Origin: a virus
Strand: one strand, 5' to 3'
Virus record (IMG/VR): IMGVR_UViG_3300008448_000554
Coordinates: 1-25,900 of that record
DNA: 25,900 bases
Below are positions 14,216-25,842 of the stretch, piece after piece. The first letter of the stretch is position 1; each line of letters begins with the position of its first letter. Position numbers and translations under genes: made by a program. The notes below the pieces were generated by a model. The model was given only the letters and a program-made list of their open reading frames with translations, was not told where the DNA came from and searched no databases.

Positions 14216-14237
14216 AATATAACGTATATACTTTGCC
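14216..14237 (-). promoter_or_regulatory. Early promoter P1 (29-aa gene and operon to 12267)
   Basis: Box GGCAAA, 10 nt, hexamer TATATT. Only 6 nt separate the hexamer from the ATG, so initiation is probably leaderless. Confidence 0.65.
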
Positions 14238-14560
14238 TATACAAAAAAGACGTGTCGAGAGGAGATTTTGGGATTTTGCAATTTGTACGCAAAAGGGTTA
14301 AGTCGAAAAACGAAGTCGCGTTTTGGAGCCAAGTATATTAGTATATACTGTCGATGGGTAAAGGTTGTGTTTGCGTTGAGAATACATCCAGCTTTTTTTG
14401 TGCCGACCACGCCCTGTCGATGGACCGCAATTAGCGTGGGAGCACCCCGCGATCAATCCGCGCACGGGCCGCTATCAAACGCTATCGGTCCGATATCGAC
14501 GCAGAAGGACCGTCTTTCGACGGCCCCTACACTTACCAGTAAATCGTTGGTTTAATTCAC
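14238..14560 (-). ncRNA. Gene-free structured region with a candidate pseudoknotted RNA
   Basis: No credible protein gene lies here. The core (14400-14527) is much more GC-rich than its surroundings. Three strong pairings are visible. Stem A pairs 14416-14427 with 14486-14500 (12 bp with a 3-nt bulge). Stem B pairs 14400-14412 with 14434-14445 (4 + 6 bp around a small internal loop). Stem H1 at 14507-14526 has 8 bp closed by a GAAA tetraloop on the minus strand. Stems A and B cross, giving an H-type pseudoknot. A further hairpin at 14445-14468 (CGCG/CGCG plus CCC/GGG) fills the long loop. On the minus strand a run of A residues follows stem B. AT-type hairpins lie at 14274-14294, 14307-14324 and 14332-14349. 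Orientation is inferred from the surrounding genes. Confidence 0.55.
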
Positions 14561-14767
14561 TCAACACTCGTACTCCTCGTACTCGCCATCGGAAACGGCA
14601 TCCTCGTACATGAGGTTGGACAGCGCTGAGATCTCAGCGTCGGTTAGTTGATCACCCAGCTGATCCAGCTCGTCGGCTAATTGCTCGTCGGCTTGACCGT
14701 ACTGATCGATTTGGTTGTTGATTGCGGTTTGGAGTTCGATGAAGCGCTCTACGTTTGTTGTAATCAT
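14561..14767 (-). CDS. Acidic small protein (68 aa)
   Basis: The sequence is helical and acidic (FIELQTAINNQIDQYGQADE, then QLADELDQLGDQLTDAEISA) and ends in EYEEYEC. There is a single Cys, at the terminus. The gene is clearly more GC-rich than most neighbours and directly precedes the structured noncoding region, which may be its 3' untranslated part. Such very acidic small phage proteins can mimic nucleic acid, but nothing specific supports that here. Confidence 0.65.
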   Translation of the reverse strand: MITTNVERFIELQTAINNQIDQYGQADEQLADELDQLGDQLTDAEISALSNLMYEDAVSDGEYEEYEC

Positions 14768-14795
14768 GTGTTTATGGTTTTAATTGGTTGATGTA

Positions 14796-14817
14796 AATAT
14801 AAGGACGGGGTTTTGCC
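14796..14817 (-). promoter_or_regulatory. Early promoter P2 (68-aa gene)
   Basis: Box GGCAAA, 10 nt, hexamer TATATT. The box lies across the loop of the hairpin at 14803-14823. Confidence 0.65.
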
Positions 14818-14823
14818 CCGTCC
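14803..14823 (-). terminator. Hairpin fused to promoter P2
   Basis: Perfect 8-bp stem GGACGGGG/CCCCGTCC with a 5-nt loop, 13 nt after the 81-aa gene. It is followed by TTATATTT rather than a clean U run, so termination is likely but partial. Confidence 0.45.
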
Positions 14824-14836
14824 TATTTTATTTTAA

Positions 14837-15082
14837 TTATTCAAATGATAATTCTGCTTCATGCCACCATAATTTTTCTCCTATATTATTAGGTCCATCT
14901 ATAACTCTAATTACTTCAACATAATACCATTCTCCTTCAGTATACTCAGGATCATCTATATCTAATCCCTGATACATATTCCAATTACTTTCCATTTCAT
15001 TCCTAATTTCATCATTAAATTCCATAGGACCTTTAAGGATAATACCTTCATTACCTTCAGGAGTCATTACTTTTTTGTTCAT
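14837..15082 (-). CDS. Small protein (81 aa), SH3-like, unknown
   Basis: The opening NKKVMTPEGNEGIILKGPME and the later GEWYYVEVIRVIDGPNNIGE followed by LWWHEAELSF suggest a small beta-barrel resembling KOW/SH3-like domains that adjust RNA or protein contacts: a GxEGxI turn, then a conserved W near the C-terminus. This is by pattern only. It has its own promoter and an A-rich leader. Confidence 0.65.
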   Translation of the reverse strand: MNKKVMTPEGNEGIILKGPMEFNDEIRNEMESNWNMYQGLDIDDPEYTEGEWYYVEVIRVIDGPNNIGEKLWWHEAELSFE

Positions 15083-15123
15083 AGTTTTAATTTTTAGTTT
15101 TTATTTATCATTTCAACACGATG

Positions 15124-15145
15124 AATGTACGAGTGAGGTTTTGCC
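15124..15145 (-). promoter_or_regulatory. Early promoter P3 (81-aa gene)
   Basis: Box GGCAAA, 10 nt, hexamer TACATT. The box forms the loop side of the hairpin at 15133-15149. Confidence 0.65.
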
Positions 15146-15149
15146 TCAC
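15133..15149 (-). terminator. Hairpin fused to promoter P3
   Basis: Stem GTGAGG/CCTCAC with loop CAAAA, following the 80-aa gene. No U run. Confidence 0.4.
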
Positions 15150-15160
15150 CCGTTTTCATT

Positions 15161-15403
15161 TTAACTGATTGGTTCCATTATATTAGGATCAGTGTTGGAA
15201 TACATCGTATCCGCTTTATACCGTACTAGGCATTCTGGACAGCCTACCGTTTTCACTCCCTCGATCCGAGCCCAATTATTACTTAGAGCCGGTGTTCCAC
15301 ACAGGTTACCTTCACCCGACTTATAGATGTGGGCTGTGTTTGACCATACGTTACCTTTGTTTCCGAAGATCGAGTAGTTGGGTTTTAATTCTGTTACGTT
15401 CAT
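15161..15403 (-). CDS. Small putative metal-binding protein (80 aa)
   Basis: A His and three Cys residues are arranged as H25 (AHIYKSG), C35 (GNLCGTP) and C55/C58 (GCPECLV), which looks like a small zinc ribbon; the pattern H...LCG...C-x2-C occurs in many phage and actinobacterial small proteins of unknown role. The N-terminus is polar with no signal. It is single-cistron under its own promoter. Confidence 0.65.
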   Translation of the reverse strand: MNVTELKPNYSIFGNKGNVWSNTAHIYKSGEGNLCGTPALSNNWARIEGVKTVGCPECLVRYKADTMYSNTDPNIMEPIS

Positions 15404-15427
15404 ATGTTTTAATTTTTGGTTAATGTG

Positions 15428-15449
15428 AATTTATTGTTTCTGTTTTGCC
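15428..15449 (-). promoter_or_regulatory. Early promoter P4 (80-aa gene)
   Basis: Box GGCAAA, 10 nt, hexamer TAAATT. The box and spacer are read as the final codons (AKQKQ) of the 63-aa gene, and its TAA stop is the first half of the hexamer. Confidence 0.65.
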
Positions 15450-15622
15450 TCGTCAAATGCACTTATGATTTCAGCAGCAATGTAAGCTATAGCCATCATT
15501 ACTGTTAACATCATCCCAAATAACCCTATTACATTATCGGCTTCATGGAAAGCCATAAATGAGAGGATCAGGAAGAATGCCATTATAATTCTGAATAGGC
15601 GGAGAAGTGATTTACTTGTCAT
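15431..15622 (-). CDS. Two-pass membrane protein (63 aa)
   Basis: The start is set at ATG 15620-15622 because the frame further upstream runs through the promoter P5. Membrane segments lie at about residues 9-25 (LFRIIMAFFLILSFMAF) and 31-53 (VIGLFGMMLTVMMAIAYIAA). The C-terminal DEAKQKQ is encoded by the downstream promoter, a clear case of dual-use sequence. Possible roles include a holin-like or exclusion protein; nothing decides between them. Confidence 0.65.
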   Translation of the reverse strand: MTSKSLLRLFRIIMAFFLILSFMAFHEADNVIGLFGMMLTVMMAIAYIAAEIISAFDEAKQKQ

Positions 15623-15646
15623 GTTTTTTAATTTTTGGTTAATGTG

Positions 15647-15668
15647 AATGTATGGTTGGTATTTTGAC
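15647..15668 (-). promoter_or_regulatory. Early promoter P5 (63-aa gene)
   Basis: Box variant GTCAAA, 10 nt, hexamer TACATT. It abuts the TAA stop of the 53-aa lipoprotein gene. Confidence 0.6.
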
Positions 15669-15830
15669 TTACCTAAGTGATTGTCCACAGCGCGCTCTAC
15701 CGTTTGCTGCGTCTTCGACTGATACGTAACGGCTACAGCTGGTCATACTGGACATTAGAGCGAGCATCAGTATTATTCCGATTATCGTTAGTGATATTTT
15801 TTCTGATTGGCTTAATGGTTGTTGTTTCAT
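15669..15830 (-). CDS. Small lipoprotein (53 aa)
   Basis: After a polar N-terminus (MKQQPLSQSEKIS) a hydrophobic segment (LTIIGIILMLALMSS) leads to a lipobox MTSC with Cys at residue 32. The mature part is only about 22 residues (CSRYVSVEDAANGRARCGQS). The CxRYV...C pattern is shared with the 54-aa lipoprotein two genes on, so these are probably paralogues. No acidic run follows the Cys, so surface export by the Bacteroidetes signal is not indicated. A role in blocking superinfection is possible. Confidence 0.65.
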   Translation of the reverse strand: MKQQPLSQSEKISLTIIGIILMLALMSSMTSCSRYVSVEDAANGRARCGQSLR

Positions 15831-15850
15831 GTGTTTATTTTTATGGGGTG

Positions 15851-15872
15851 AATGTACGAGTGGGGTTTCGCC
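15851..15872 (-). promoter_or_regulatory. Early promoter P6 (53-aa lipoprotein)
   Basis: Box variant GGCGAA, 10 nt, hexamer TACATT, in hairpin 15860-15876. Confidence 0.6.
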
Positions 15873-15876
15873 CCAC
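15860..15876 (-). terminator. Hairpin fused to promoter P6
   Basis: Stem GTGGGG/CCCCAC, loop CGAAA, between the 97-aa and 53-aa genes. No U run. Confidence 0.4.
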
Positions 15877-15891
15877 CCGTTTCACTTTATC

Positions 15892-16185
15892 TTACTCAAC
15901 CTCACTCACATCATAACCCCACTCTCTCAACTTATCAATCACTGGGATCGGTAAACTAAATACCCCATCGTAACCAGTAATCGCTTTATCTTCGATCTGT
16001 AAACTGCCTTCAGCGTACCAATCATCACCACCTGACTCTACATCGTACAACTCGAACCAACCGTAATCATCTGAATTGATCCCTACGGTTACATCTAATA
16101 ATACACCGTCTTCTTCTTTAAGTACACCGAATGAATTTTCAAGTGTTAGGAACTGTGTTGCTTGGAATGTTTCTTTTCTGATCAT
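15892..16185 (-). CDS. Small acidic protein (97 aa), unknown
   Basis: The start is ATG 16183-16185 (MIRKETFQATQFLTLENSFG), with the typical A-rich leader directly before it. The protein is beta-rich and acidic (VLLDVTVGINSDDYGWFELY, then DVESGGDDWYAEGSLQIED) and ends in a short helix (VIDKLREWGYDVSEVE). It has no cysteines or membrane segment. Family not recognised. Confidence 0.65.
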   Translation of the reverse strand: MIRKETFQATQFLTLENSFGVLKEEDGVLLDVTVGINSDDYGWFELYDVESGGDDWYAEGSLQIEDKAITGYDGVFSLPIPVIDKLREWGYDVSEVE

Positions 16186-16210
16186 AATTTTTAATTTTTT
16201 GGTTAACGTG

Positions 16211-16232
16211 AAGGTAAGGGTGGGGTTGTGCC
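16211..16232 (-). promoter_or_regulatory. Early promoter P7 (97-aa gene)
   Basis: Box variant GGCACA, 10 nt, hexamer TACCTT, in hairpin 16218-16238. Confidence 0.55.
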
Positions 16233-16238
16233 CCACCC
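16218..16238 (-). terminator. Hairpin fused to promoter P7
   Basis: Perfect 8-bp stem GGGTGGGG/CCCCACCC with loop CACAA, 9 nt after the 54-aa lipoprotein gene. No U run follows. Confidence 0.45.
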
Positions 16239-16247
16239 GGTTTTATT

Positions 16248-16412
16248 TTACCAATTCTTAGTTCCGATTTTACACTTCTTAGGATACCAAACACCACACT
16301 CTCCGTTATTACTTTCTCTTACATAACGGTTACAACTTGTTAGTGTTGATAACACCATACAAATTCCAAACCCAATAACCATTCCTAATAAAAACTTTTC
16401 TACTTTTTTCAT
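16248..16412 (-). CDS. Small lipoprotein (54 aa), paralogue of the 53-aa one
   Basis: The signal MKKVEKFLLGMVIGFGICMV leads to the lipobox LTSC, Cys at residue 27. The mature peptide begins CNRYVRESNNGECGVWYPKK and carries two more cysteines (C39, C47) that could form a disulfide. Compared with the lipoprotein at 15669-15830 it keeps C-x-RYV and a Cys about 12 residues on. It is expressed from its own promoter. Envelope location is inferred. Confidence 0.7.
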   Translation of the reverse strand: MKKVEKFLLGMVIGFGICMVLSTLTSCNRYVRESNNGECGVWYPKKCKIGTKNW

Positions 16413-16447
16413 AACTTTTAATTTTTGGTTTTAATAATTGTGATGTG

Positions 16448-16469
16448 AATCTACTTAATCGTTCTTGCC
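16448..16469 (-). promoter_or_regulatory. Early promoter P8 (54-aa lipoprotein)
   Basis: Box GGCAAG, 10 nt, hexamer TAGATT. Box and spacer encode the last residues (ARTIK) of the 58-aa gene; its TAG stop is the start of the hexamer. Confidence 0.6.
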
Positions 16470-16627
16470 CAACCCGTTACTTCGGACTTCTGGGATGCTT
16501 GTTTCCACCCGTCTCCCACTCGATAAACAACTTTTTGGGTTGAACAGCTGGTTAGGTAAGCGATCAGGAACATTAGCGCTACTAGGATCAACGTGTAATC
16601 CCATTCTTTGTAGTTTTTGATTTTCAT
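16451..16627 (-). CDS. Small lipoprotein (58 aa)
   Basis: The start is ATG 16625-16627; the longer frame reads through the promoter. A membrane or signal segment (YTLILVALMFLIAYLTSC) ends in the lipobox LTSC, Cys at residue 28. The mature part begins CSTQKVVYRVGDGWKQASQK. It lies directly upstream of the 54-aa lipoprotein, making three lipoprotein genes in a 1-kb stretch. The residues past the Cys differ from the CxRYV pair, so it may be only distantly related. Confidence 0.68.
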   Translation of the reverse strand: MKIKNYKEWDYTLILVALMFLIAYLTSCSTQKVVYRVGDGWKQASQKSEVTGWARTIK

Positions 16628-16649
16628 ACGTTTTAATTTTTGTGAGATG

Positions 16650-16671
16650 AAGATAGGTGGGCCGTTGTGCC
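16650..16671 (-). promoter_or_regulatory. Early promoter P9 (58-aa lipoprotein)
   Basis: Box GGCACA, 10 nt, hexamer TATCTT, in hairpin 16656-16675. Confidence 0.55.
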
Positions 16672-16675
16672 CACC
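16656..16675 (-). terminator. Hairpin fused to promoter P9
   Basis: Stem GGTGGGC/GCCCACC with a 6-nt loop between the 73-aa and 58-aa genes. No U run. Confidence 0.4.
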
Positions 16676-16698
16676 CACTTCAATCAACCGATTTAGAA

Positions 16699-16920
16699 TT
16701 ACATGATCGAGTTCAAACGTACACTTCTAAACCCTTTCACTTTCAAATCGTACACCCTAAGGATGTCTTCGTTTGATTGTTTTAATTCCCTATTACCAGG
16801 AATCAGTTCAGGGTTTAGAGTTGCCGTCATTTCTCTTACGGTACCATCTTTCTTGGTAAACGAAAATGTTGCTTCTCCTTGGTTCAATTTGGTCTTCAGG
16901 CCGTCGATTTTTGTTTTCAT
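16699..16920 (-). CDS. SH3-like barrel protein, DUF2693-type (73 aa)
   Basis: The layout, a short N-terminal helix then GEATFSFTKKDGTVREMTAT followed by LNPELIP, a Lys/Asn loop and VYDLKVKGFRSVRLNSIM, matches DUF2693, a small SH3-like beta-barrel family common in Bacteroidetes and their phages: (V/F)xFxKKDGTxRxMxATLNPELIP and a terminal F/W-RS-F/V-R. Function of the family is unknown. The gene is monocistronic. The family match was made by eye. Confidence 0.72.
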   Translation of the reverse strand: MKTKIDGLKTKLNQGEATFSFTKKDGTVREMTATLNPELIPGNRELKQSNEDILRVYDLKVKGFRSVRLNSIM

Positions 16921-16958
16921 AACTTATTTATTTTGGTTTTTTAATTATTTACAGTGGA

Positions 16959-16980
16959 AAGGTAAGGGTGGGGCTTTGCC
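16959..16980 (-). promoter_or_regulatory. Early promoter P10 (73-aa gene)
   Basis: Box GGCAAA, 10 nt, hexamer TACCTT, in hairpin 16967-16985. Confidence 0.58.
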
Positions 16981-16985
16981 CCACC
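16967..16985 (-). terminator. Hairpin fused to promoter P10
   Basis: Perfect 8-bp stem GGTGGGGC/GCCCCACC with a 3-nt loop, directly after the 26-aa gene. Confidence 0.45.
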
Positions 16986-16988
16986 ACT

Positions 16989-17069
16989 TTAATTCAAAAT
17001 AATAATGTTGATTGGTTCTGGTAATCCAATAATTGCTTGACAAATTCCGATTTGTGGTGTAATAAACAT
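16989..17069 (-). CDS. Microprotein (26 aa)
   Basis: The frame MFITPQIGICQAIIGLPEPI followed by NIIILN has a full early promoter, the usual A-rich leader ending AAAAAGT before the ATG, and a stop followed at once by the next hairpin-promoter. It is hydrophobic enough to touch membranes but lacks charged flanks. The gene-sized slot between two hairpin-promoters argues that this tiny frame is used. It is too short for homology claims. Confidence 0.45.
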   Translation of the reverse strand: MFITPQIGICQAIIGLPEPINIIILN

Positions 17070-17092
17070 ACTTTTTATTTTTGGTTAACGTG

Positions 17093-17114
17093 AAGATAAG
17101 TGGTGGGTTTTGAC
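17093..17114 (-). promoter_or_regulatory. Early promoter P11 (26-aa gene)
   Basis: Box GTCAAA, 10 nt, hexamer TATCTT, in hairpin 17100-17121. Confidence 0.55.
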
Positions 17115-17121
17115 CCACCAC
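17100..17121 (-). terminator. Hairpin fused to promoter P11
   Basis: Perfect 9-bp stem GTGGTGGGT/ACCCACCAC with a 4-nt loop after the 67-aa gene. No U run. Confidence 0.45.
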
Positions 17122-17124
17122 GTT

Positions 17125-17328
17125 TTAGTACTTTAATTGTATTATACAATACTCTTTTTCATCTTCATCACCTTCACCATCCCAACTATCATCAAAACCA
17201 TCACCTTTGTACACTTTCTTAACGTCGACTTTCACCATAAAATCGTCACCGTCAGAATCAAACTCACCTAACACTTTCATTTTGGGATCAAACTTACTTA
17301 GTTTTTCAATCAATTGTTCTACTGTCAT
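17125..17328 (-). CDS. Small acidic phage protein (67 aa)
   Basis: The start is ATG 17326-17328. The N-terminus TVEQLIEKLSKFDPKMKV is a pattern seen widely in small phage proteins (xLIExLxKFDPxxxV) of unknown role. The rest is very acidic (EFDSDGDDFMVKVDV, then DDSWDGEGDEDEKE) with a final beta strand (YCIIQLKY). The upstream in-frame Met (M-Y-I-H-V-N) is translated promoter and was not used. Confidence 0.7.
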   Translation of the reverse strand: MTVEQLIEKLSKFDPKMKVLGEFDSDGDDFMVKVDVKKVYKGDGFDDSWDGEGDEDEKEYCIIQLKY

Positions 17329-17384
17329 AGTTTTAATTTTTTGGTTAACATGAATGTACATAACTAATTCTGACTAACAAATTT
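17325..17384. repeat. 60-nt exact direct repeat, copy 1
   Basis: Identical to 17595-17654, 270 nt away. It spans a start codon, its leader, promoter P12 and the end of the preceding gene. Confidence 0.9.
17353..17374 (-). promoter_or_regulatory. Early promoter P12 (67-aa gene)
   Basis: Box GTCAGA, 10 nt, hexamer TACATT. It abuts the TAG stop of the 74-aa gene and lies in the 60-nt repeat. Confidence 0.58.
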
Positions 17385-17598
17385 CATAATCATAGTTCTC
17401 ATAAAACTGTAAGTCATTTACTTTATATTTTTTAATATACTCTTCTTCACTTAAATCTGTATTACAATTATCATAATCAATTTGGTAATGATGTTTTATA
17501 ATCTCTAACTCACATTCTTCTTGAGTTTTACACTCAACAACATCTACATCTAATAATTTGAATGACGAACAATCATAATGATAAATCTTAACAATCAT
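17374..17598 (-). CDS. Small acidic protein (74 aa), unknown
   Basis: The start is ATG 17596-17598. The sequence MIVKIYHYDCSSFKLLDVDV, then VECKTQEECELEIIKHHYQI, is a beta strand pair followed by a helix, with four Cys residues in the N-terminal half and at the end. The C-terminus (YENYDYEIC) is encoded partly by repeat DNA. Family not recognised. Confidence 0.6.
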   Translation of the reverse strand: MIVKIYHYDCSSFKLLDVDVVECKTQEECELEIIKHHYQIDYDNCNTDLSEEEYIKKYKVNDLQFYENYDYEIC

Positions 17599-17654
17599 AG
17601 TTTTAATTTTTTGGTTAACATGAATGTACATAACTAATTCTGACTAACAAATTT
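17595..17654. repeat. 60-nt exact direct repeat, copy 2
   Basis: Same sequence as 17325-17384. Here it lies between the 86-aa gene and the 74-aa gene and ends before the 86-aa stop. Confidence 0.9.
17623..17644 (-). promoter_or_regulatory. Early promoter P13 (74-aa gene)
   Basis: Box GTCAGA, 10 nt, hexamer TACATT, inside the 60-nt repeat. Confidence 0.58.
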
Positions 17655-17659
17655 AATTT

Positions 17660-17920
17660 TTACACTAATATTCCTGTTCTAACATCATTCCATGTTTCTT
17701 CAAAATATTCAGAATCAGCTCCTGTATCACCTACTCCCCATTCCATAACAAATTCATTCCAAATAAATTTAAAATCCTTTTTCATTACTTTACCTTTATC
17801 TCTAAAGTAATCATCAATAAATTTATTCCACTTATCTATTTCTTTTTCATTCATTCCTTCATCTAAAGCATACCAAATCCATTCTTTAATTACTTCGATC
17901 ATTTGTTCTTTTGTTACCAT
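17660..17920 (-). CDS. Small Trp-rich protein (86 aa)
   Basis: The start is ATG 17918-17920 (MVTKEQMIEVIKEWIWYALD), since the longer frame crosses promoter P14. It is helical and rich in Trp and acidic residues (KWNKFIDDYFRDKGKV, then FIWNEFVMEWGVGDTGADSE). The composition resembles small regulators or inhibitors that pack against host proteins, but no family is recognised. Confidence 0.65.
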   Translation of the reverse strand: MVTKEQMIEVIKEWIWYALDEGMNEKEIDKWNKFIDDYFRDKGKVMKKDFKFIWNEFVMEWGVGDTGADSEYFEETWNDVRTGILV

Positions 17921-17948
17921 AGTTTTAATTTTATTTTTATTATACATA

Positions 17949-17970
17949 AATGTACGTAAATAATTTTGAC
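17949..17970 (-). promoter_or_regulatory. Early promoter P14 (86-aa gene)
   Basis: Box GTCAAA, 10 nt, hexamer TACATT, directly after the U run of the terminator at 17976-18007. Confidence 0.58.
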
Positions 17971-17975
17971 TAACA

Positions 17976-18007: not shown

Positions 18008-18041
18008 GCATTAACCATTAAAATTAAAAGTATGACCGAGT

Positions 18042-18478: not shown

Positions 18479-18500
18479 AATGTACGAAAAAAGTTGTGCC
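18479..18500 (-). promoter_or_regulatory. Early promoter P15 (136-aa gene)
   Basis: Box GGCACA, 10 nt, hexamer TACATT. It abuts the TAG stop of the 74-aa gene. Confidence 0.6.
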
Positions 18501-18747: not shown

Positions 18748-18769
18748 AATATAGGTGATGGGTTTTGAC
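18748..18769 (-). promoter_or_regulatory. Early promoter P16 (74-aa gene)
   Basis: Box GTCAAA, 10 nt, hexamer TATATT, in the hairpin at 18755-18776. Confidence 0.58.
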
Positions 18770-19012: not shown

Positions 19013-19034
19013 AATGTACACAAAAAGCAGTGCC
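19013..19034 (-). promoter_or_regulatory. Early promoter P17 (65-aa gene)
   Basis: Box GGCACT, 10 nt, hexamer TACATT. It abuts the TAG stop of the 57-aa gene. Confidence 0.55.
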
Positions 19035-19229: not shown

Positions 19230-19252
19230 AAGATACAAAAAAGAACCTTGCC
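19230..19252 (-). promoter_or_regulatory. Early promoter P18 (57-aa gene), 11-nt spacer
   Basis: Box GGCAAG, 11 nt, hexamer TATCTT. The box overlaps the 3' arm of the terminator at 19237-19269. Confidence 0.5.
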
Positions 19253-19282: not shown

Positions 19283-19528
19283 TTAAGCAGCTACAGTTTC
19301 AGCTTTAACTGCTTTAGGACGTCCAACTTTGATTTCAACACCTGATGCCTTACGAGCTTCTTGAGCTGCAATCTTAGCTTGACGAGCGCTGTTTGGATTT
19401 GATGGACGGCCTCTACCGACTGAACCACCATTCTCAATACGCTCTGCGCGTGCTGTTAACTTTGCCTGACGAGCTGAATTAGCTACTACTGGACGACCTC
19501 TCTTTGTTGTTTTGTTTTCTGTTGACAT
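19283..19528 (-). CDS. AT-hook DNA-binding protein (81 aa)
   Basis: Three AT-hook-like cores are visible: RGRP at residues 10-13, RGRP at 39-42 and VGRPK at 68-72. The first two head an internal repeat of about 30 residues (RGRPVVANSARQAK against RGRPSNPNSARQAK) in which the linker is also conserved. AT-hooks insert Arg-Gly-Arg into the minor groove of AT-rich DNA. In an AT-rich phage genome it could coat or bend its own DNA, or compete with host silencers. It has its own promoter and a strong terminator, suggesting high expression. Confidence 0.82.
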   Translation of the reverse strand: MSTENKTTKRGRPVVANSARQAKLTARAERIENGGSVGRGRPSNPNSARQAKIAAQEARKASGVEIKVGRPKAVKAETVAA

Positions 19529-19567: not shown

Positions 19568-19588
19568 AATCTACAATTTTGTTTTGCC
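19568..19588 (-). promoter_or_regulatory. Early promoter P19 (81-aa AT-hook gene), 9-nt spacer
   Basis: Box GGCAAA with 9 nt, or GGGCAA with 10 nt, before hexamer TAGATT. Confidence 0.5.
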
Positions 19589-19598: not shown

Positions 19599-20243
19599 TT
19601 ATTTACGTTTTGGTCTTCCTCTTTTACCACCGGATCTCGCTCTACGAGCGGCTGCTTCGCGCGCGCGAGCCTCTTTGATCGCCGGATCTAGGGGCTGACG
19701 TCCACGTTTTCCACCAGTTGGAACATACACTTTGGGCGTTGCTACTGTAGCTCCTTTCGGACGTCCTCTTCGTCCACCGGATTTAACCGCTCGAGCCGCC
19801 TTCTCTTCCTCGCGGCGAGCTCGCTCTTCCGGCGATAAAGCCTTACGTCCGCGCTTACCGGCTCCTTTCTCCGCTCGACGCTGAGCTCGCTCGTACGCTT
19901 TATCACGCTTAGCTTGTTCCTTCTCGGCTTTGAGTTTCATTCGCTCCATTCGCTTGGCGTGTTGAATAACGTCTGGATGAACAATTACCTGATCAAGCTC
20001 AAAGTAACGTCGGCCTCCGTCTTCAACCCACACTTCGAAGCCGCCATTCGCCATTAAGTGGTACTCGCCCGGCTCGTAACGCTTCATCAGCTCGCACCGT
20101 ACCTTCTTCTCGTAGTAGTAAGCGGCAGGTAAAACACGGGTGCCGGGTTCCGTTGCGACCAATTCTGGTTCAACTTCGCTATAAAAAAGCTGGGTGCCTA
20201 TTTTATGACCACCCACTAACCAATCTCGTTCGTTTATTTTCAT
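19599..20243 (-). CDS. Large AT-hook protein (214 aa)
   Basis: The start is ATG 20241-20243 (MKINERDWLVGGHKIGTQLF); an upstream in-frame Met would include promoter P20. Residues 1-95 are a mixed alpha/beta domain of unknown family. Residues 96-125 form a basic helix. The tail carries four Arg-Gly-Arg blocks: KRGRK (130-134), RRGRPKG (158-164), KRGRQ (179-183) and KRGRPKRK (207-214). Two of the four have the RGRP core. The gene is noticeably richer in GC than its surroundings, partly because of Arg, Gly and Ala codons. It lies upstream of the other AT-hook gene, and together they may organise phage DNA. Confidence 0.8.
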   Translation of the reverse strand: MKINERDWLVGGHKIGTQLFYSEVEPELVATEPGTRVLPAAYYYEKKVRCELMKRYEPGEYHLMANGGFEVWVEDGGRRYFELDQVIVHPDVIQHAKRMERMKLKAEKEQAKRDKAYERAQRRAEKGAGKRGRKALSPEERARREEEKAARAVKSGGRRGRPKGATVATPKVYVPTGGKRGRQPLDPAIKEARAREAAARRARSGGKRGRPKRK

Positions 20244-20259: not shown

Positions 20260-20281
20260 AATGTACAAACAAAACGTTGCC
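20260..20281 (-). promoter_or_regulatory. Early promoter P20 (214-aa AT-hook gene)
   Basis: Box GGCAAC, 10 nt, hexamer TACATT. It is divergent to the plus-strand promoter 27 nt away. Confidence 0.6.
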
Positions 20282-20307: not shown

Positions 20308-20329
20308 GGCAAAGAAAAAAACTTAAATT
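20308..20329 (+). promoter_or_regulatory. Plus-strand early promoter (only one found)
   Basis: Box GGCAAA (20308-20313), 10 nt, hexamer TAAATT (20324-20329), then CACATTG. This is the full consensus, facing away from all genes, and would start transcription near 20336. Confidence 0.55.
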
Positions 20330-20731: not shown

Positions 20732-20753
20732 AATGTACGAACTTATTCTTGCC
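20732..20753 (-). promoter_or_regulatory. Early promoter P22 (78-aa gene)
   Basis: Box GGCAAG, 10 nt, hexamer TACATT. The box is read as codons of the WWQE end of the 69-aa gene, and the TAA stop lies in the spacer. Confidence 0.6.
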
Positions 20754-20971: not shown

Positions 20972-20993
20972 AATTTACGTATAAAATTTTGCC
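20972..20993 (-). promoter_or_regulatory. Early promoter P23 (69-aa gene)
   Basis: Box GGCAAA, 10 nt, hexamer TAAATT, preceded by a T run and two direct copies of GCGACAA (plus strand). Confidence 0.6.
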
Positions 20994-21459: not shown

Positions 21460-21630
21460 TTATTTATTTTCTTCGTTAACATGAATATACGATTGTTGTT
21501 TTGCCTCCCTGGATTTATTATCTATTATCTCCATCGCCTTATCCAATCTATCATTCATCTTATCCAATTTCTCTATTATCCTATCCATCGTCGCTATTAT
21601 GTCCTTTAGTTCTGTGTTGTTATTATTCAT
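21460..21630 (-). CDS. Coiled-coil microprotein running through the next promoter (56 aa)
   Basis: Heptad-rich sequence ELKDIIATMDRIIEKLDKMN, then DRLDKAMEIIDNK, forms a probable coiled coil. The C-terminal EAKQQSYIHVNEENK is entirely encoded by promoter P24 (box, spacer, hexamer and leader), so the frame continues right across the next gene's promoter before stopping. Similar KMNDRLDKA helices occur in many small phage proteins of unknown role. Confidence 0.62.
   Translation of the reverse strand: MNNNNTELKDIIATMDRIIEKLDKMNDRLDKAMEIIDNKSREAKQQSYIHVNEENK
21484..21505 (-). promoter_or_regulatory. Early promoter P24 (61-aa gene)
   Basis: Box GGCAAA, 10 nt, hexamer TATATT, wholly inside the 56-aa coding frame. 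Confidence 0.6.
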
Positions 21631-21650: not shown

Positions 21651-21672
21651 AATGTACGCTTGTTACTTTGCC
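21651..21672 (-). promoter_or_regulatory. Early promoter P25 (56-aa coiled-coil gene)
   Basis: Box GGCAAA, 10 nt, hexamer TACATT. It abuts the TAG stop of the interrupted gene. Confidence 0.62.
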
Positions 21673-21812: not shown

Positions 21813-21837
21813 AACTTATTATTTTTTGGTTAACGTA

Positions 21838-21859
21838 AAGGTAGTGGCTTTATTTTGCC
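21838..21859 (-). promoter_or_regulatory. Early promoter P26 (interrupted gene)
   Basis: Box GGCAAA, 10 nt, hexamer TACCTT, in the hairpin at 21841-21864. The box is read as the last codons (VVAK) of the 97-aa gene. Confidence 0.58.
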
Positions 21860-21864: not shown

Positions 21865-22143
21865 CACTATTCCTTCCTGAATCATTCTGTTTACCTTATC
21901 TAATACTACTGTAGGATTCTTCTTCAAGTAATCAGGATTGTACTCTAATTCGCCTGCTAATGTACACCACTCTTCTAAATTATCAAATTCATTTTCTCCA
22001 TAAGCACCATTGATGTACAGATCTGCATCCGTTATTAGTAGTTCCTTCTTGTTTAGACGATCGTATGCTGATTCGTCTTCGATAATACGTGCGTTGATCA
22101 TTTCGAGTTCAATCTCGAATTCTTTTGTCATTTCTAAATGCAT
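21850..22143 (-). CDS. Acidic protein (97 aa), unknown
   Basis: The start at 22143 leaves a leader of normal length. Helical N-terminus (MTKEFEIELEMINARIIEDE), Tyr/Leu-rich acidic middle (ADLYINGAYGENEFDNLEEW) and a C-terminal YNPDYLKKNPTVVLDKVNRM. No cysteine pairs or membrane segments. The last residues VVAK come from the promoter box. Family not recognised. Confidence 0.65.
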   Translation of the reverse strand: MHLEMTKEFEIELEMINARIIEDESAYDRLNKKELLITDADLYINGAYGENEFDNLEEWCTLAGELEYNPDYLKKNPTVVLDKVNRMIQEGIVVVAK

Positions 22144-22167
22144 ATTGTTTAATTTTTGGTTAACGTA

Positions 22168-22189
22168 AATATACGACTATTACTCTGCC
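22168..22189 (-). promoter_or_regulatory. Early promoter P27 (97-aa gene)
   Basis: Box GGCAGA, 10 nt, hexamer TATATT. Box codons give the EEAE end of the 69-aa gene; its TAA is in the spacer. Confidence 0.58.
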
Positions 22190-22389
22190 TCTTCCATACT
22201 ATCAACGAATTCTTCTACTCGCTCAAGTAATTCTGCATCATCGATTTGATAACCGTCTCTATCCATTAGAATAGCATCAATCACTTTACCCTCAGATAAC
22301 CATTCTTTGTAATAGAATACTCCATCTTCATCTTGAATTGTGTACATGTGTTGTGTTACTACGTTTTCTGTTTTGTTTAATAATTCCAT
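22180..22389 (-). CDS. Acidic protein (69 aa), unknown
   Basis: The start is ATG 22387-22389 (MELLNKTENVVTQHMYTIQD), after an unusually long leader holding a palindrome. It continues EDGVFYYKEWLSEGKVIDAI, then DDAELLERVEEFVDSMEEAE: a small beta part followed by an acidic helix. No family is recognised. The C-terminal AE is written by the next promoter box. Confidence 0.65.
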   Translation of the reverse strand: MELLNKTENVVTQHMYTIQDEDGVFYYKEWLSEGKVIDAILMDRDGYQIDDAELLERVEEFVDSMEEAE

Positions 22390-22419
22390 ATTTTTGTTTT
22401 TTTGGTTTTGATACACATC

Positions 22420-22434
22420 ATTGCATTATGCAAT
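22420..22434 (-). promoter_or_regulatory. Inverted repeat in a 5' leader
   Basis: Perfect 15-nt inverted repeat ATTGCATTATGCAAT between promoter P28 and the 69-aa gene: 6-bp arms, 3-nt centre. Could be a repressor site or a leader hairpin; other leaders here lack it. Confidence 0.4.
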
Positions 22435-22445
22435 CGTGCGTAATA

Positions 22446-22467
22446 AATGTACGACTATTACTTTGCC
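22446..22467 (-). promoter_or_regulatory. Early promoter P28 (69-aa gene)
   Basis: Box GGCAAA, 10 nt, hexamer TACATT, sharing one base with the TAG stop of the 152-aa gene. Confidence 0.62.
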
Positions 22468-22925
22468 TACTCGTCTTCTAATCCGTCCATTAGTGTATTA
22501 TCCCAATCTCTATCTTCTTCGCTATAACCCGCTCCGTCATATTTAGGTCCATTATCAATGACGTGTATAACACCTATTTTTCCATTAACTAATTTACTAA
22601 CAGTAAATGATTCTAAATTATCTATTTCTCTTACATTCGCTAATAACTCGACAAATTGCTCTTCATTCTCCAATGAACCACATTGATACGCAACTGTATC
22701 ATAACATTTAATTCGATATGCACCGTATGGTTCTTTTATCTCACTTATTTTCCAATCATCATCTGTTAATTCTGTTAACAGTTTATCTCTGTTGATAATT
22801 TCTGCTGAATAATGATAACCACAATGTTGACAGTTAACATATTCTTCTCCTGTCTTGTAGTAAAAATCGCTGTATGCTTCGTTGCCGCAATTTGGACAAT
22901 CGATGTGGTCAATTACTGATCCCAT
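22467..22925 (-). CDS. Zinc-ribbon protein (152 aa)
   Basis: The N-terminus holds a four-Cys ribbon, C10-P-N-C13 (HIDCPNCGNEAYSD) and C32-Q-H-C35 (VNCQHCGYHYS), the usual spacing of small zinc ribbons. The remainder is acidic with alternating strands (GAYRIKCYDTVAYQCGSLEN, then KIGVIHVIDNGPKYDGAGYS). Such ribbons often contact nucleic acids or RNA polymerase, but no particular role is visible. One of the largest genes in this region; monocistronic. Confidence 0.72.
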   Translation of the reverse strand: MGSVIDHIDCPNCGNEAYSDFYYKTGEEYVNCQHCGYHYSAEIINRDKLLTELTDDDWKISEIKEPYGAYRIKCYDTVAYQCGSLENEEQFVELLANVREIDNLESFTVSKLVNGKIGVIHVIDNGPKYDGAGYSEEDRDWDNTLMDGLEDE

Positions 22926-22949
22926 GTTTTATTATTTTTTGGTTAATTG

Positions 22950-22971
22950 AATGTACGCTTGTTATTTTGCC
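22950..22971 (-). promoter_or_regulatory. Early promoter P29 (152-aa gene)
   Basis: Box GGCAAA, 10 nt, hexamer TACATT, 3 nt after the 63-aa gene's stop. Confidence 0.62.
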
Positions 22972-22974
22972 TGA

Positions 22975-23166
22975 TCACAACCAAGTTTTTTTACCTAAAA
23001 ATAAGTTTGATGTTGATACTTTCTCTGTCTCTCCATTCTCAAATAATATAACCAATGCAGTTACTAAGGGAAATTCAATACCTTCTCTTCGTTCAAATTC
23101 CATCTCAATAATTTCTACGTTTTCACCTTTGTAAGGAAAAGCTAAATACTGGATTTTGTTAGTCAT
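22975..23166 (-). CDS. Small beta-rich protein (63 aa)
   Basis: Strands IQYLAFPYKGENVEIIEMEF, then FPLVTALVILFENGETEKVS, suggest a small barrel, followed by TSNLFLGKKTWL. This order is reminiscent of phage proteins of the SH3/Tudor-like type, though no motif decides. It has no cysteine. Own promoter and A-rich leader. Confidence 0.65.
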   Translation of the reverse strand: MTNKIQYLAFPYKGENVEIIEMEFERREGIEFPLVTALVILFENGETEKVSTSNLFLGKKTWL

Positions 23167-23190
23167 ATTTTATTGTTTTTGGTTAATGTG

Positions 23191-23212
23191 AATCTACAAC
23201 TATTGTTTTGCC
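23191..23212 (-). promoter_or_regulatory. Early promoter P30 (63-aa gene)
   Basis: Box GGCAAA, 10 nt, hexamer TAGATT, touching the TAG stop of the 48-aa gene. Confidence 0.62.
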
Positions 23213-23358
23213 TACTCACTATCTTCTTTTAGTGGTTTGCATATTGTAATGTACATATTTCCATCCATAATATCACTATCATCTATTACAAAACCATTAC
23301 CTTTAATTAGTTCTACTACTAATTTAATCGCTTCTCTAAGTTGTTGTTCGTGTGTCAT
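23212..23358 (-). CDS. Microprotein (48 aa), unknown
   Basis: Helix MTHEQQLREAIKLVVELIKG followed by two strands (GFVIDDSDIMDGNMYITICK) and an acidic end PLKEDSE. The gene has a promoter, a leader and a stop that meets the next promoter, so it fills its slot exactly. Its opening THEQQLRE resembles the HPQQLKE helix of the next gene upstream, suggesting a shared origin. Confidence 0.6.
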   Translation of the reverse strand: MTHEQQLREAIKLVVELIKGNGFVIDDSDIMDGNMYITICKPLKEDSE

Positions 23359-23379
23359 ATTTAATTATTTGGTTAATGG

Positions 23380-23401
23380 AATTTACGATTGTTGCTTTGC
23401 C
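23380..23401 (-). promoter_or_regulatory. Early promoter P31 (48-aa gene)
   Basis: Box GGCAAA, 10 nt, hexamer TAAATT. Box and spacer are the last codons (AKQQS) of the 56-aa gene; its TAA is the hexamer start. Confidence 0.65.
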
Positions 23402-23553
23402 AATTCACTCTCAATTGCTTGTTCTATTTTATCTATACCCTCAAATACACCATCTATTGTGTATATGTTTGGGTGAAATTCGTCTGTGAGTATTCTTAGT
23501 TGGCGAATGAATTCCTTAAGTTGTTGTGGGTGATTTTCTTCGAATTGTGTCAT
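23383..23553 (-). CDS. Microprotein ending in promoter-encoded AKQQS (56 aa)
   Basis: The frame MTQFEENHPQQLKEFIRQLR, then ILTDEFHPNIYTIDGVFEGI, then DKIEQAIESELAKQQS, is mostly helical. The segment TIDGVFEGIDKIEQAIES resembles the TIYQAIKGIEELIES segment of the interrupted gene at 21672-21812, so the two probably descend from one gene. Function unknown. Confidence 0.62.
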   Translation of the reverse strand: MTQFEENHPQQLKEFIRQLRILTDEFHPNIYTIDGVFEGIDKIEQAIESELAKQQS

Positions 23554-23578
23554 AACTTGTTATTTTTTGGTTAACATG

Positions 23579-23600
23579 AAGATAGTGGCCTTATTCTGCC
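23579..23600 (-). promoter_or_regulatory. Early promoter P32 (56-aa gene)
   Basis: Box GGCAGA, 10 nt, hexamer TATCTT. The box gives the VAE end of the 64-aa gene; a short GTGGC/GCCAC stem surrounds it. Confidence 0.56.
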
Positions 23601-23785
23601 ACTTCAACTGATTCGAGTACTTCTTCAAAGTTGATTTTACCTTTATTCTTCACAATGTTGTCATATATTGCTTTAGCTTCATCCTGTTTGAATGATAAAC
23701 TACCATCAATAAACCTACCATCAACACGGGTGAAATAAAAGATTCTACTGTCAACTTTTGTTTCTTTAATAAATTCAATTTTCAT
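23591..23785 (-). CDS. Small protein (64 aa), unknown
   Basis: The N-terminal half is two or three strands (MKIEFIKETKVDSRIFYFTR, then VDGRFIDGSLSFKQDE) and the rest a helix (AKAIYDNIVKNKGKINFEEV). Compact and soluble, with no cysteine. The C-terminal residues are encoded in the next promoter. Family not recognised. Confidence 0.65.
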   Translation of the reverse strand: MKIEFIKETKVDSRIFYFTRVDGRFIDGSLSFKQDEAKAIYDNIVKNKGKINFEEVLESVEVAE

Positions 23786-23810
23786 AACTATTTTATTTTT
23801 GGTTTAATTA

Positions 23811-23832
23811 AATCTACGACTGCTATTTTGCC
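23811..23832 (-). promoter_or_regulatory. Early promoter P33 (64-aa gene)
   Basis: Box GGCAAA, 10 nt, hexamer TAGATT, touching the TAG stop of the 77-aa gene. Confidence 0.62.
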
Positions 23833-24065
23833 TACCAACCATTTCTTCCTCCTGGTTGAACTCTGTCTAGTAGAGATACTTCTACTGTATCGCCTTTATG
23901 TATATTGTTGTTTGGGTAATGATACCAATAATCACTGCCTTTAGGATGAATAGTAGATGTTTTCTTGTGGTAATGTACATCTTCTACTACTACACAAAAT
24001 CTACTTGGTATGCGTGTTGTTGTACATGACGTTAACGCTAATACTATTACTACTATTTTTTTCAT
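23832..24065 (-). CDS. Small lipoprotein (77 aa)
   Basis: The signal MKKIVVIVLALTSCTTTRIP ends in lipobox LTSC with Cys at residue 14. The mature part is mostly beta with His, Tyr and Trp (VVEDVHYHKKTSTIHPKGSD, then YWYHYPNNNIHKGDTVEVSL). The promoter hexamer ends 6 nt before the ATG, so initiation is probably leaderless. Location at the inner face of the envelope is inferred from the lack of an acidic run after the Cys. Confidence 0.72.
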   Translation of the reverse strand: MKKIVVIVLALTSCTTTRIPSRFCVVVEDVHYHKKTSTIHPKGSDYWYHYPNNNIHKGDTVEVSLLDRVQPGGRNGW

Positions 24066-24071
24066 AACCTT

Positions 24072-24093
24072 AATTTACGACTATTGTTTTGCC
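24072..24093 (-). promoter_or_regulatory. Early promoter P34 (77-aa lipoprotein)
   Basis: Box GGCAAA, 10 nt, hexamer TAAATT. Box codons supply the AKQ end of the 83-aa gene. Leaderless arrangement. Confidence 0.63.
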
Positions 24094-24332
24094 TTCAAAT
24101 ACATTTCATCAAAGTTAATCCACCTACCTTTCTCAGGATTATCATAATCATCCATAAACACCATCACTTCATCACCTGTCTCTTTCTTACCAATTGCATT
24201 AAATCCAAATCCCTCACAAATATAAGAAACAGCATACCCCGGTTGTAGTTTAGACCATTCTTCATATATATCAAAGTCACCATCAAACCCCATATCGTTT
24301 ATTTCACAATATTGTTTACTGAATTCTGCCAT
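24081..24332 (-). CDS. Acidic protein (83 aa), unknown
   Basis: Begins MAEFSKQYCEINDMGFDGDF and has beta segments (PGYAVSYICEGFGFNAIGKK, then GDEVMVFMDDYDNPEKGRWI) with a short C-terminal helix ending KAKQ. The start lies inside the 3' end of the lipoprotein gene upstream (17-nt overlap), so it is the last of a four-gene unit beginning at 24814. Two cysteines only; no recognised family. Confidence 0.65.
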   Translation of the reverse strand: MAEFSKQYCEINDMGFDGDFDIYEEWSKLQPGYAVSYICEGFGFNAIGKKETGDEVMVFMDDYDNPEKGRWINFDEMYLKAKQ

Positions 24333-24513
24333 TGTTGTTTGTTTTATAGAAGTTAATTGAATCTTGTTGCGTTGGAATATGATTGTATGTTTTTATTACA
24401 TGTGTTTCATTTCCTACTGAGTCATAAACATATTTAACTAATGTATATGATTGTTTTGGTGATGTAGAACAGCTACTAAGTATAAGTCCTATTCCTGCTA
24501 TTACTTTTTTCAT
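24316..24513 (-). CDS. Small lipoprotein (65 aa)
   Basis: The signal MKKVIAGIGLILSSCSTSPK contains lipobox LSSC with Cys at residue 15. The mature chain (YTLVKYVYDSVGNETHVIKT, then YNHIPTQQDSINFYK) is polar and Tyr-rich. It is co-transcribed with the 61-aa gene (2-nt gap) and the 83-aa gene (17-nt overlap). It is the fifth small lipoprotein in the window. Possible exclusion protein, by analogy only. Confidence 0.7.
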   Translation of the reverse strand: MKKVIAGIGLILSSCSTSPKQSYTLVKYVYDSVGNETHVIKTYNHIPTQQDSINFYKTNNNGRIQ

Positions 24514-24515
24514 GT

Positions 24516-24701
24516 TTATAGGTTTTCTTCTAAATAAGTAACTATTTCGTTTTCTAATTCATCTTCAACTAAATCACCATTTTCATCAAATACATCATAG
24601 CTGATATAACCAGAGTTTATGTCTTCTAGACGTGTAACTGAGTAGCTATGGTTGTATAGTTCTACTGTATATGTAGATTCTGTTTGTGTTAGTTCGATCA
24701 T
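24516..24701 (-). CDS. Small acidic protein (61 aa)
   Basis: Strands MIELTQTESTYTVELYNHSY, then SVTRLEDINSGYISYDVFDE, are followed by an acidic helix (DLVEDELENEIVTYLEENL). The start overlaps the stop of the 38-aa membrane peptide (ATGA), so it depends on promoter P35. No cysteine. Family not recognised. Confidence 0.65.
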   Translation of the reverse strand: MIELTQTESTYTVELYNHSYSVTRLEDINSGYISYDVFDENGDLVEDELENEIVTYLEENL

Positions 24702-24814
24702 TTGTGTAGTTTTGATATTGCGTTAATTATTATTCCGATTAGTCCAAGTACAAATACTGATGTACAGAACCAAACCACAAAGAAATAAATAATGTTTTCG
24801 ATTTTTTGTTTCAT
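24698..24814 (-). CDS. Membrane microprotein (38 aa)
   Basis: MKQKIENIIYFFVVWFCTSV followed by FVLGLIGIIINAISKLHK is one long hydrophobic helix (about 8-33) between basic ends. It has a promoter, a short A-rich leader and an ATGA overlap with the next gene, which together make it likely to be translated. Heads the four-gene unit 24814 to 24081. Confidence 0.6.
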   Translation of the reverse strand: MKQKIENIIYFFVVWFCTSVFVLGLIGIIINAISKLHK

Positions 24815-24831
24815 AACTTTTTATTTAGGTA

Positions 24832-24853
24832 AAATTAAGAAAGAAGCAGTGCC
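24832..24853 (-). promoter_or_regulatory. Early promoter P35 (38-aa gene and three followers)
   Basis: Box GGCACT, 10 nt, hexamer TAATTT. It abuts the TAG stop of the 114-aa gene; a GAAGCA/TGCTTC stem spans it. Confidence 0.52.
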
Positions 24854-25197
24854 TAAGTACTTGCTTCTTCTTTAAGATTTTCTATGAAAGTGTATACAGC
24901 ATCTTTTACAGCCGCCTTGATTTTATTTCCATTCAAATCAATACTATCTAATTCTACTTCTCTACCATAATTCATAGTTAACGTATAATCATCTACTATA
25001 TCACATCCTTCATTATTTAGAGTATCAGTAATTTCACTACTCAAATCATCAATAGCAGAATCATCTATTTCTATTTTACCAGTATTTACTTCAAGACAAT
25101 CCAATAAATGTAACACATCTTCACGTGTTAAAATTGAACTGTACCCTTCCATAATTTGTTGTTTCGCTTGCTCGATTGTTACTTTGTTGTTGTTCAT
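24853..25197 (-). CDS. Acidic protein (114 aa), unknown
   Basis: Helical N-terminus (VTIEQAKQQIMEGYSSILTR, then EDVLHLLDCLEV), an acidic middle (EIDDSAIDDLSSEITDTLNN) and a C-terminal helix (KIKAAVKDAVYTFIENLKEE). Soluble, with two Cys. Larger than most neighbours and alone under promoter P36. Family not recognised. Confidence 0.68.
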   Translation of the reverse strand: MNNNKVTIEQAKQQIMEGYSSILTREDVLHLLDCLEVNTGKIEIDDSAIDDLSSEITDTLNNEGCDIVDDYTLTMNYGREVELDSIDLNGNKIKAAVKDAVYTFIENLKEEAST

Positions 25198-25230
25198 GAT
25201 TTTTGGTTTTTGGTTTAATTTTATAGTGTG

Positions 25231-25252
25231 AATGTACGACTGTTACTTTGCC
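25231..25252 (-). promoter_or_regulatory. Early promoter P36 (114-aa gene)
   Basis: Box GGCAAA, 10 nt, hexamer TACATT; 4 nt after the 104-aa gene's stop. Confidence 0.62.
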
Positions 25253-25256
25253 TTCC

Positions 25257-25571
25257 TTAGAACTTCAAATTCAATGCTTTGATTTGTTTGCGAATGGCTT
25301 CTTTAGTAAATATCTTCTTAAATTCGTCATCAAGTAGCTTATCAAAGTCGATTCCCATATCAGCATGGAATTTCTTGAATTTTCTCCAATTATCATATCC
25401 TTCAATTGCATGCCCGTGGTATGTAATTCTATCAATATCTACAAACTCAATATCAAACTCCTTATCATCAGCATGATTTAGATATGTTTGAGCATGTAAT
25501 GTTGCTTTAAGTTCTCCGATTTGAACGTCTTGCTCGAATGTGAGCATCATTGTTGTGCGTGTGTGCTTCAT
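25257..25571 (-). CDS. Small alpha/beta protein (104 aa)
   Basis: Two long strands (TMMLTFEQDVQIGELKATLH, then FDIEFVDIDRITYHGHAIEG) are followed by helices (DNWRKFKKFHADMGIDFDKL, then DDEFKKIFTKEAIRKQIKAL). No cysteines or membrane segments. The mixed fold resembles small phage proteins of unknown role. Own promoter and a leader with two TTTTTGG-type complements. Confidence 0.66.
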   Translation of the reverse strand: MKHTRTTMMLTFEQDVQIGELKATLHAQTYLNHADDKEFDIEFVDIDRITYHGHAIEGYDNWRKFKKFHADMGIDFDKLLDDEFKKIFTKEAIRKQIKALNLKF

Positions 25572-25602
25572 AACTTATTGTTTTTGGTTTTTGGTTTAAG
25601 TG

Positions 25603-25624
25603 AATTTACGACTACTACTCTGCC
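25603..25624 (-). promoter_or_regulatory. Early promoter P37 (104-aa gene)
   Basis: Box GGCAGA, 10 nt, hexamer TAAATT. Box codons give the MAE end of the 61-aa gene; its TAG is in the spacer. Confidence 0.58.
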
Positions 25625-25800
25625 ATCCAATCTCTATAGTCTTCCCATATCGCTTCGTCTGTTACACCAACGTAATCTTCTAATGAACTATAAGTGAATA
25701 TACAGTCGATATATTCATCTATGAAGTTATCTCCTTCACCACCAGCACGTAGTAGATTTCTGATGTATTGTTCTAATGATTCTTGATTTTCAAATTCCAT
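25615..25800 (-). CDS. Acidic helical protein (61 aa)
   Basis: MEFENQESLEQYIRNLLRAG, then EGDNFIDEYIDCIFTYSSLE, then DYVGVTDEAIWEDYRDWMAE: three or four short helices, very acidic, with a Trp-rich end. The last residues are written by promoter P37. Function unknown. Confidence 0.65.
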   Translation of the reverse strand: MEFENQESLEQYIRNLLRAGGEGDNFIDEYIDCIFTYSSLEDYVGVTDEAIWEDYRDWMAE

Positions 25801-25820
25801 AATTATTTATTTATAGAGTG

Positions 25821-25842
25821 AATGTACGAAAGAAGTAGTGCC
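25821..25842 (-). promoter_or_regulatory. Early promoter P38 (61-aa gene)
   Basis: Box GGCACT, 10 nt, hexamer TACATT. It touches the TAG stop of the gene at the right edge; a GAAGTAG/CTACTTC stem spans it. Confidence 0.55.

Follow-up and report, generated by a model that had tools for sequence, protein, structure and literature searches.

Replication genes, 44, 45 and 32 among them, are served by the middle promoters of bacteriophage T4. These promoters work by sigma appropriation and carry the MotA box TGCTT at N12 ± 1 (-35 to -26) (PMC2988021). In Bacteroidetes, promoters of the primary sigma factor, sigma-A, are described as pairing a -33 TTTG with a -7 TAnnTTTG (PMC7366714; PMC9723704), and the latter report maps the -7 box of Flavobacterium psychrophilum to positions -12 to -5. 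Beyond a few model systems, little is known of how the unusual RNA polymerase of these bacteria is redirected by phages. Here we describe a bipartite element, a GGCA-type box followed at a nearly fixed distance by TANNTT, that is repeated along a window of 25,900 nucleotides (nt), positions 1 to 25,900 of the IMG/VR record IMGVR_UViG_3300008448_000554.

The window is part of the genome of a T4-like myophage, a relative of Flavobacterium phage immuto (MW353175). Immuto is the nearest isolate, with a gp6 homologue at 47% amino acid identity; no DNA-level similarity of the window to annotated phages was found. The left half holds gp6-like and gp25-like baseplate genes together with one large structural open reading frame (ORF), and the right half a series of small genes, all on the same strand. 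In immuto, a short-gene cluster likewise immediately precedes the same baseplate module.

An array with a rigid gap

Between 14.2 and 25.8 kb a unit made up of a G(G/T)C(A/G) box, a gap and TANNTT recurs 37 times on the minus strand, the gap being 10 nt in 35 copies, 9 nt in one and 11 nt in one. A pattern scan that leaves out GGCG returns 36 sites, from 14237 to 25842 (gap 10 in 34, gap 9 at 19588 and gap 11 at 19252), and allowing a GGCG box adds the site at 15872. A first-pass annotation of this DNA had listed 38 copies, 36 of them at gap 10, which was essentially right, the recount lowering each figure by one. The matrix scan that it had proposed, carried out with a position weight matrix made from the sites, gives 36 matches in the window (35 on one strand) and 0-1 in shuffled sequence. 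GGCA stands at -16 of TANMTT 27 times where 0.3 would be expected, and a reversed-pattern control has no match in the window. The near-fixed spacing that the annotation had reported is borne out by an unbiased gap-length scan of 11 related phage contigs, which finds 263 sites at gap 10, nine at gap 9, five at gap 11 and about two, the background level, at other gaps. For 34 of the 37 window sites, an ATG ORF 35 amino acids or longer begins within 75 nt, and the distance from TANNTT to the ATG is most often 20-26 nt and usually about 24 nt.

The motif is common to ten IMG/VR contigs, the largest number of pattern matches being 47, in a contig of 160 kb, and in the related contigs almost all sites lie on the coding strand. 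When the pattern was extended by the leader, a search of the genome-contig collection gave no matches. This is a real, clade-wide promoter class, related to known kinds of promoter. We hold with moderate confidence that the copies would be genuine promoters, forming an early/middle regulon of a T4-like Bacteroidetes phage clade, with sigma-A at TANNTT and a second factor at GGCA.

Anatomy of the promoter

A logo from 325 sites reads G(G/T)CA(A/C)A(A/G)(T/C)-N-TCG-TA(T/C)ATT-(C/T)AC-N-TTAACCAAAAA. TANNTT is nearly invariant, but the letters that follow it are (C/T)A, as against the TG of the Bacteroidetes -7 element TANNTTTG. The annotation had equated TANNTT with the host -7 element, and its match to the box mapped in F. 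psychrophilum (PMC9723704) supports the equation and so places GGCANA at -28 to -23. Transcription would then start about 6-7 nt after TANNTT. Several features go beyond the annotation: the motif runs on downstream of TANNTT into a conserved YAC and an A-rich leader, and it has remnants of a -33 TTG, embedded upstream stop codons and hairpins in its spacer.

About 25% of sites, and in larger samples 15-55% by genome, retain a canonical -33 TTG, located at -23/-22 from TA; this is above chance without being general. Within the window, a canonical -33 TTTG accompanies three GTCA-N10-TANNTT promoters (17949..17970, 17623..17644 and 17353..17374, all minus strand, as are the other window sites given below unless marked). 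Where it occurs, the TTG lies 6-8 nt upstream of the GGCA box, which rules out GGCA as an ordinary -33, in keeping with what the annotation had supposed.

The stop codon of the upstream gene often falls inside the motif, as TA|GGC or GGCAAARTAA; at the GGCA-N10 promoter 23811..23832 the G of the box is the G of the upstream stop TAG. Strong hairpins that fill the spacer are found at about 11 window sites and at 15% of sites across relatives. Folding at -10 kcal/mol or better is seen at that 15% as against 0.8% of shuffled segments, and stems reach -21 kcal/mol. In the window, pattern scan and folding place hairpins at GGCA-N10-TANNTT promoters at 25821..25842, 24832..24853, 21838..21859 (arms GGTAGTGGC/GCCACTACC), 16959..16980, 16650..16671, 16211..16232, 15124..15145 and 14796..14817 (9 bp, AGGACGGGG/CCCCGTCCT), at the GTCA promoters 18748..18769 and 17093..17114 (a perfect 9-bp stem, GTGGTGGGT/ACCCACCAC), and at the GGCG variant 15851..15872. 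The GGCA-N10 promoter at 23579..23600 has a short inverted repeat, AGTGGC/GCCACT. The hairpin arms are not the same at different sites (42 sites have 29 distinct innermost 6-mers), the stem finishes 1-2 nt ahead of TANNTT, and the GGCA/GTCA letters lie within or beside the loop. At 40 of 42 hairpin sites, as against 58 of 210 non-hairpin sites (p=4e-17), the ORF upstream has ended before the box is reached, an association that is partly expected because coding sequence restricts palindromes. The hairpins are probably terminators of the preceding unit, set inside the next promoter, albeit with an imperfect T-run: the tract after the stem is TATCTT/TATATT, without a clean U run. N4-type DNA-hairpin promoters are ruled out, since strong hairpins occur in only 15% of sites.

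The remaining GGCA-N10-TANNTT promoters from the pattern scan are at 25603..25624, 25231..25252, 23380..23401, 23191..23212, 22950..22971, 22446..22467, 22168..22189, 21651..21672, 21484..21505, 20972..20993, 20732..20753, 19013..19034, 18479..18500, 16448..16469 and 15428..15449, with a further GTCA promoter at 15647..15668 and the gap variants GGCA-N9-TANNTT at 19568..19588 and GGCA-N11-TANNTT at 19230..19252. At the GGCA-N10 promoter 24072..24093 the ATG comes 6 nt past TANNTT, making this unit nearly leaderless, and the GGCA-N10 site at 14216..14237 has no ATG ORF of at least 35 amino acids within 75 nt. The GGCA-N10 promoter at 20260..20281 precedes the gene of an AT-hook protein and stands back to back with a divergent GGCA-N10-TANNTT site on the plus strand, 20308..20329; no plus-strand gene was identified behind this opposed partner. 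Opposite-strand sites also occur in the corresponding area of relatives, in contigs G006 (512-535), G007 (54542-54565), G026 (7814-7837) and G027 (7423-7446).

Genes served

In a near-complete relative (G009), GGCA sites stand immediately before the genes of a gp44 homologue (clamp-loader subunit), a gp32 homologue (ssDNA-binding protein; Pfam gp32, E=2.6e-10) and a clamp-like, gp45-like protein (E=1e-4 to the PHROG family DNA polymerase processivity factor). The single-gene regulon of the first-pass annotation was thus drawn too narrowly, since complete relatives have the promoter before replication genes as well. Its label of early is consistent with the gene content, which points to an early/middle class and from which we infer the timing. 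Structural genes bear a different, late-type motif, ATATTTATA, in 17 of 32 upstream regions against 0.9 expected, and this motif is found in immuto too. When the sites were compared with the T4 late (gp55) class, which has only an TATAAATA-like -10, on structural genes, the GGCA sites did not fit and ATATTTATA was found in that role. The form ATATTTATA/TATTTATA before structural genes in G009, G006 and immuto is a candidate late promoter common to the GGCA phages and immuto.

The GGCA phages also have what by eye resembles a family B DNA polymerase, together with clamp-loader genes of T4 type (G009:154761-157343, 2435-3358 and 3874-4251). No immuto homologue was found for these genes, and the immuto record is annotated with a family A polymerase, so that a difference in replication machinery seems to go with the difference in promoter class. 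A conserved early protein of about 180 amino acids with GHGSP and WCNAD motifs (G009:37434-37976 and orthologues) has no Pfam match. In the window itself, a protein matching homing-endonuclease-type PHROG families (12547-13029, minus strand) adjoins the short-gene array, and Rfam and tRNA searches gave no matches.

Distribution and variation of the upstream box

A sigma-factor-like protein encoded at 10853..11635 (minus strand) served as phylogenetic marker. Its Sigma70_r2 match is below cut-off, its PHROG sigma factor match has E=0.002-0.01, and its Foldseek matches are mostly sigma factors, all at E of at least 0.15; a gp55-type late sigma is a plausible identity, though not an established one. 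Eighty loci with this gene were collected and 4-mers tested at every offset, with no motif assumed. GGCA or GTCA at -16 from TA is confined to one group of loci. TTTGG/GTTG at -24 from TA marks immuto and L141, and more weakly L139, L145, L147 and L148, while TGACC at -18 marks L130 and, weakly, L128. The latter two, a sister lineage, have TGACC about 18 nt before TATATT with the same type of short-gene cluster. Sister lineages keep the -7 box, with GTTG/TTTGG at the classic -33 or TGACC near -18.

In the tree of the sigma-like protein, all loci with multiple GGCA sites fall into a single 28-row clade supported at 99/99; a few of its members, whose upstream regions are short, have no GGCA sites. 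Some members (L089, L093 and L107) carry both TTTGG and GGCA, as expected of an intermediate state. The GGCA array would be a derived trait of one monophyletic clade; the tree was midpoint-rooted and immuto is a long branch, so the direction of change is one that we infer. Short genes of immuto are preceded by GTTG-N20-TATATTTAGGTAT (also written GTTG-N20-TATATTTAG), and no GGCA is found there. These genes are syntenic, so that the two promoters differ only in the upstream half, and the downstream half is a promoter element.

A further proposal, put forward tentatively and with rather more doubt than belief, is that a regulon of 25-50 sites per genome may have swapped its upstream box in concert between related phage lineages (GTTG/TTTGG, GGCA, TGACC) with the -7 box and the late promoters held constant, which would imply an unrecognised sigma-appropriation factor, unrelated to MotA/AsiA, and terminators built into the spacers. 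Concerted replacement and a new factor of this kind are suggested by the data but unproven. One lineage seems to have rewired its entire early programme.

A proposed second contact at GGCA and its alternatives

A kept -7, an eroded -33, a new box at a rigid gap, the inclusion of replication genes and the exclusion of late genes together make up an activator or sigma-remodelling pattern like that of MotA/AsiA. Host RNA polymerase with its primary sigma-A would recognise TANNTT as the -7 element (-12 to -7), and a factor distinct from unmodified host sigma-A would make a second, sequence-specific contact at G(G/T)CANA (-28 to -23). Such a separate factor would most likely be a phage-encoded activator or sigma-remodelling protein, acting in the manner of MotA/AsiA without being homologous to them. 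Its contact would largely take over from that at the host -33 TTTG, still to be seen at roughly one site in four. Units of only some 200-400 bp would then each have a promoter that either overlaps the preceding stop codon or bears a hairpin, the probable terminator, in its spacer.

The first-pass annotation had supposed that a phage or host factor binds the box in the manner of MotA. The geometry and the gene set do resemble T4 middle promoters, but searches for MotA/AsiA homologues (PF09158, PF09114 and PF09010) in seven genomes, six relatives and immuto, gave no match at E<=10, a test that remote analogues could escape, and no binder emerged. On the features tested, this is not a member of the MotA/AsiA family: the box is another, the distance is another and there is no homologue. 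The 214-amino-acid AT-hook protein (19599-20243, minus strand), with KRGRP repeats, is a possible GGCA factor, though a weak candidate of low confidence. It is present in the window and in all six larger GGCA contigs, its gene lies behind a GGCA promoter in most relatives, and no homologue was found in immuto. A second protein with AT-hook (KRGRP) repeats, at 19283-19528 (minus strand), also occurs across the GGCA phages, again with no immuto homologue found. Another possibility is a factor common to immuto and the GGCA clade whose specificity has altered.

Some findings weigh against a phage factor at GGCA. The -33 TTG seen in 15-55% of sites by genome may mean that sigma-A region 4 still contacts the DNA. 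Among clade-core proteins without an immuto homologue, a search identified no binder: the sole small helix-turn-helix protein (G009:149505-149741) has a variable recognition helix beside an unchanging box and was set aside as unlikely. Finally, the host comparison, in which GGCA-N12-TANNTTTG was not enriched (199 versus 170 in the control) and the standard TTTG-N19-TANNTTTG was (1096 versus 700), took in only 15 Bacteroidota genomes, chosen by GroEL similarity, and the strict TANNTTTG form. These figures speak against a general host element, though one specific to the true host may exist.

The best alternative is that these are immediate-early promoters read by the host alone, through sigma-A, a host activator or a sigma variant of the clade's host, with no phage factor and with the clade difference reflecting a host shift. 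We consider this unlikely, though it deserves real weight: the density of sites and single-gene layout suit immediate-early expression, TTG remnants are still present and lineages with other boxes may use other hosts. Against it stand the missing GGCA excess beside an enriched standard promoter, and the six sigma motifs of F. psychrophilum (SM1-3 sigma-A, SM4 sigma-54, SM5, and SM6 extracytoplasmic function (ECF)), none of which has this architecture as described in the text of the source (PMC9723704).

That an alternative sigma factor reads the whole of GGCA-N10-TANNTT, be it the phage sigma-like protein, a host ECF sigma or sigma-54, appears improbable. The gene is present and a rigid gap suits one protein contacting both halves, but the sigma-like gene is conserved in immuto, which has no GGCA, and both have the late-type ATATTTATA; TANNTT is moreover the sigma-A -7 box, and sigma-54 is ruled out by its GG to GC spacing of 10 bp. 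More doubtful still is an operator, with GGCA bound by a phage repressor or silencer that overlaps ordinary promoters. Near-identical sites repeated beside promoters and the divergent pair 20281/20308 would suit it, but a rigid gap to the -7 and a degraded -33 are expected of an activator contact, and operators tolerate shifts. An RNA-level or translation-start element like the start-associated sequences of cluster K mycobacteriophages is very hard to credit despite the constant ATG distance and conserved A-rich leader, as GGCA is about 45 nt from the ATG, overlaps upstream stops and has a host -7 box for its partner, and sister phages have the same layout with a canonical -33.

Comparison with known systems

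As the annotation had supposed, the class matches none described: a literature search, open-access only, found no description of this motif. The array supplies a rule by which promoters can be annotated in many uncharacterised viral contigs, and its sites are short, strong promoter candidates for Bacteroidetes genetics. A rigid, countable code of up to about 50 sites per genome, with other codes in sister lineages and constant late promoters, makes the evolution of a regulator and its box as a pair testable.

Cluster K mycobacteriophages likewise have many copies of an element (SAS/ESAS) before small genes, about half with inverted repeats, but SAS is a 13-mer close to the translation start whose repeats are conserved in sequence, whereas the present element is a promoter with variable arms (PMC3203893). 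The early promoters of immuto share the syntenic short-gene region, the TTCNTATATTTA core, the A-rich leader and hairpins in some spacers (hairpin-like by eye), but have GTTGC at N20, the canonical -33, and no GGCA box. With Bacteroidetes sigma-A promoters the position of TANNTT is shared, as is a TTG -33 in a quarter of sites; here, however, TT(C/T)A replaces the TTTG end of the -7, the spacer holds the GGCA box and the -33 is mostly absent. T4 middle promoters are alike in retaining the host -10/-7 hexamer and exchanging the upstream element for a box near -30, and a phage-type box at a fixed distance in place of the -35 is what the 263 gap-10 sites and the largely lost -33 present. They differ in having TGCTT at N12 ± 1 where GGCANA stands here at N10 (-28 to -23), and in that the present promoters come without MotA/AsiA homologues, serve mostly single tiny genes and carry hairpins inside the spacer.

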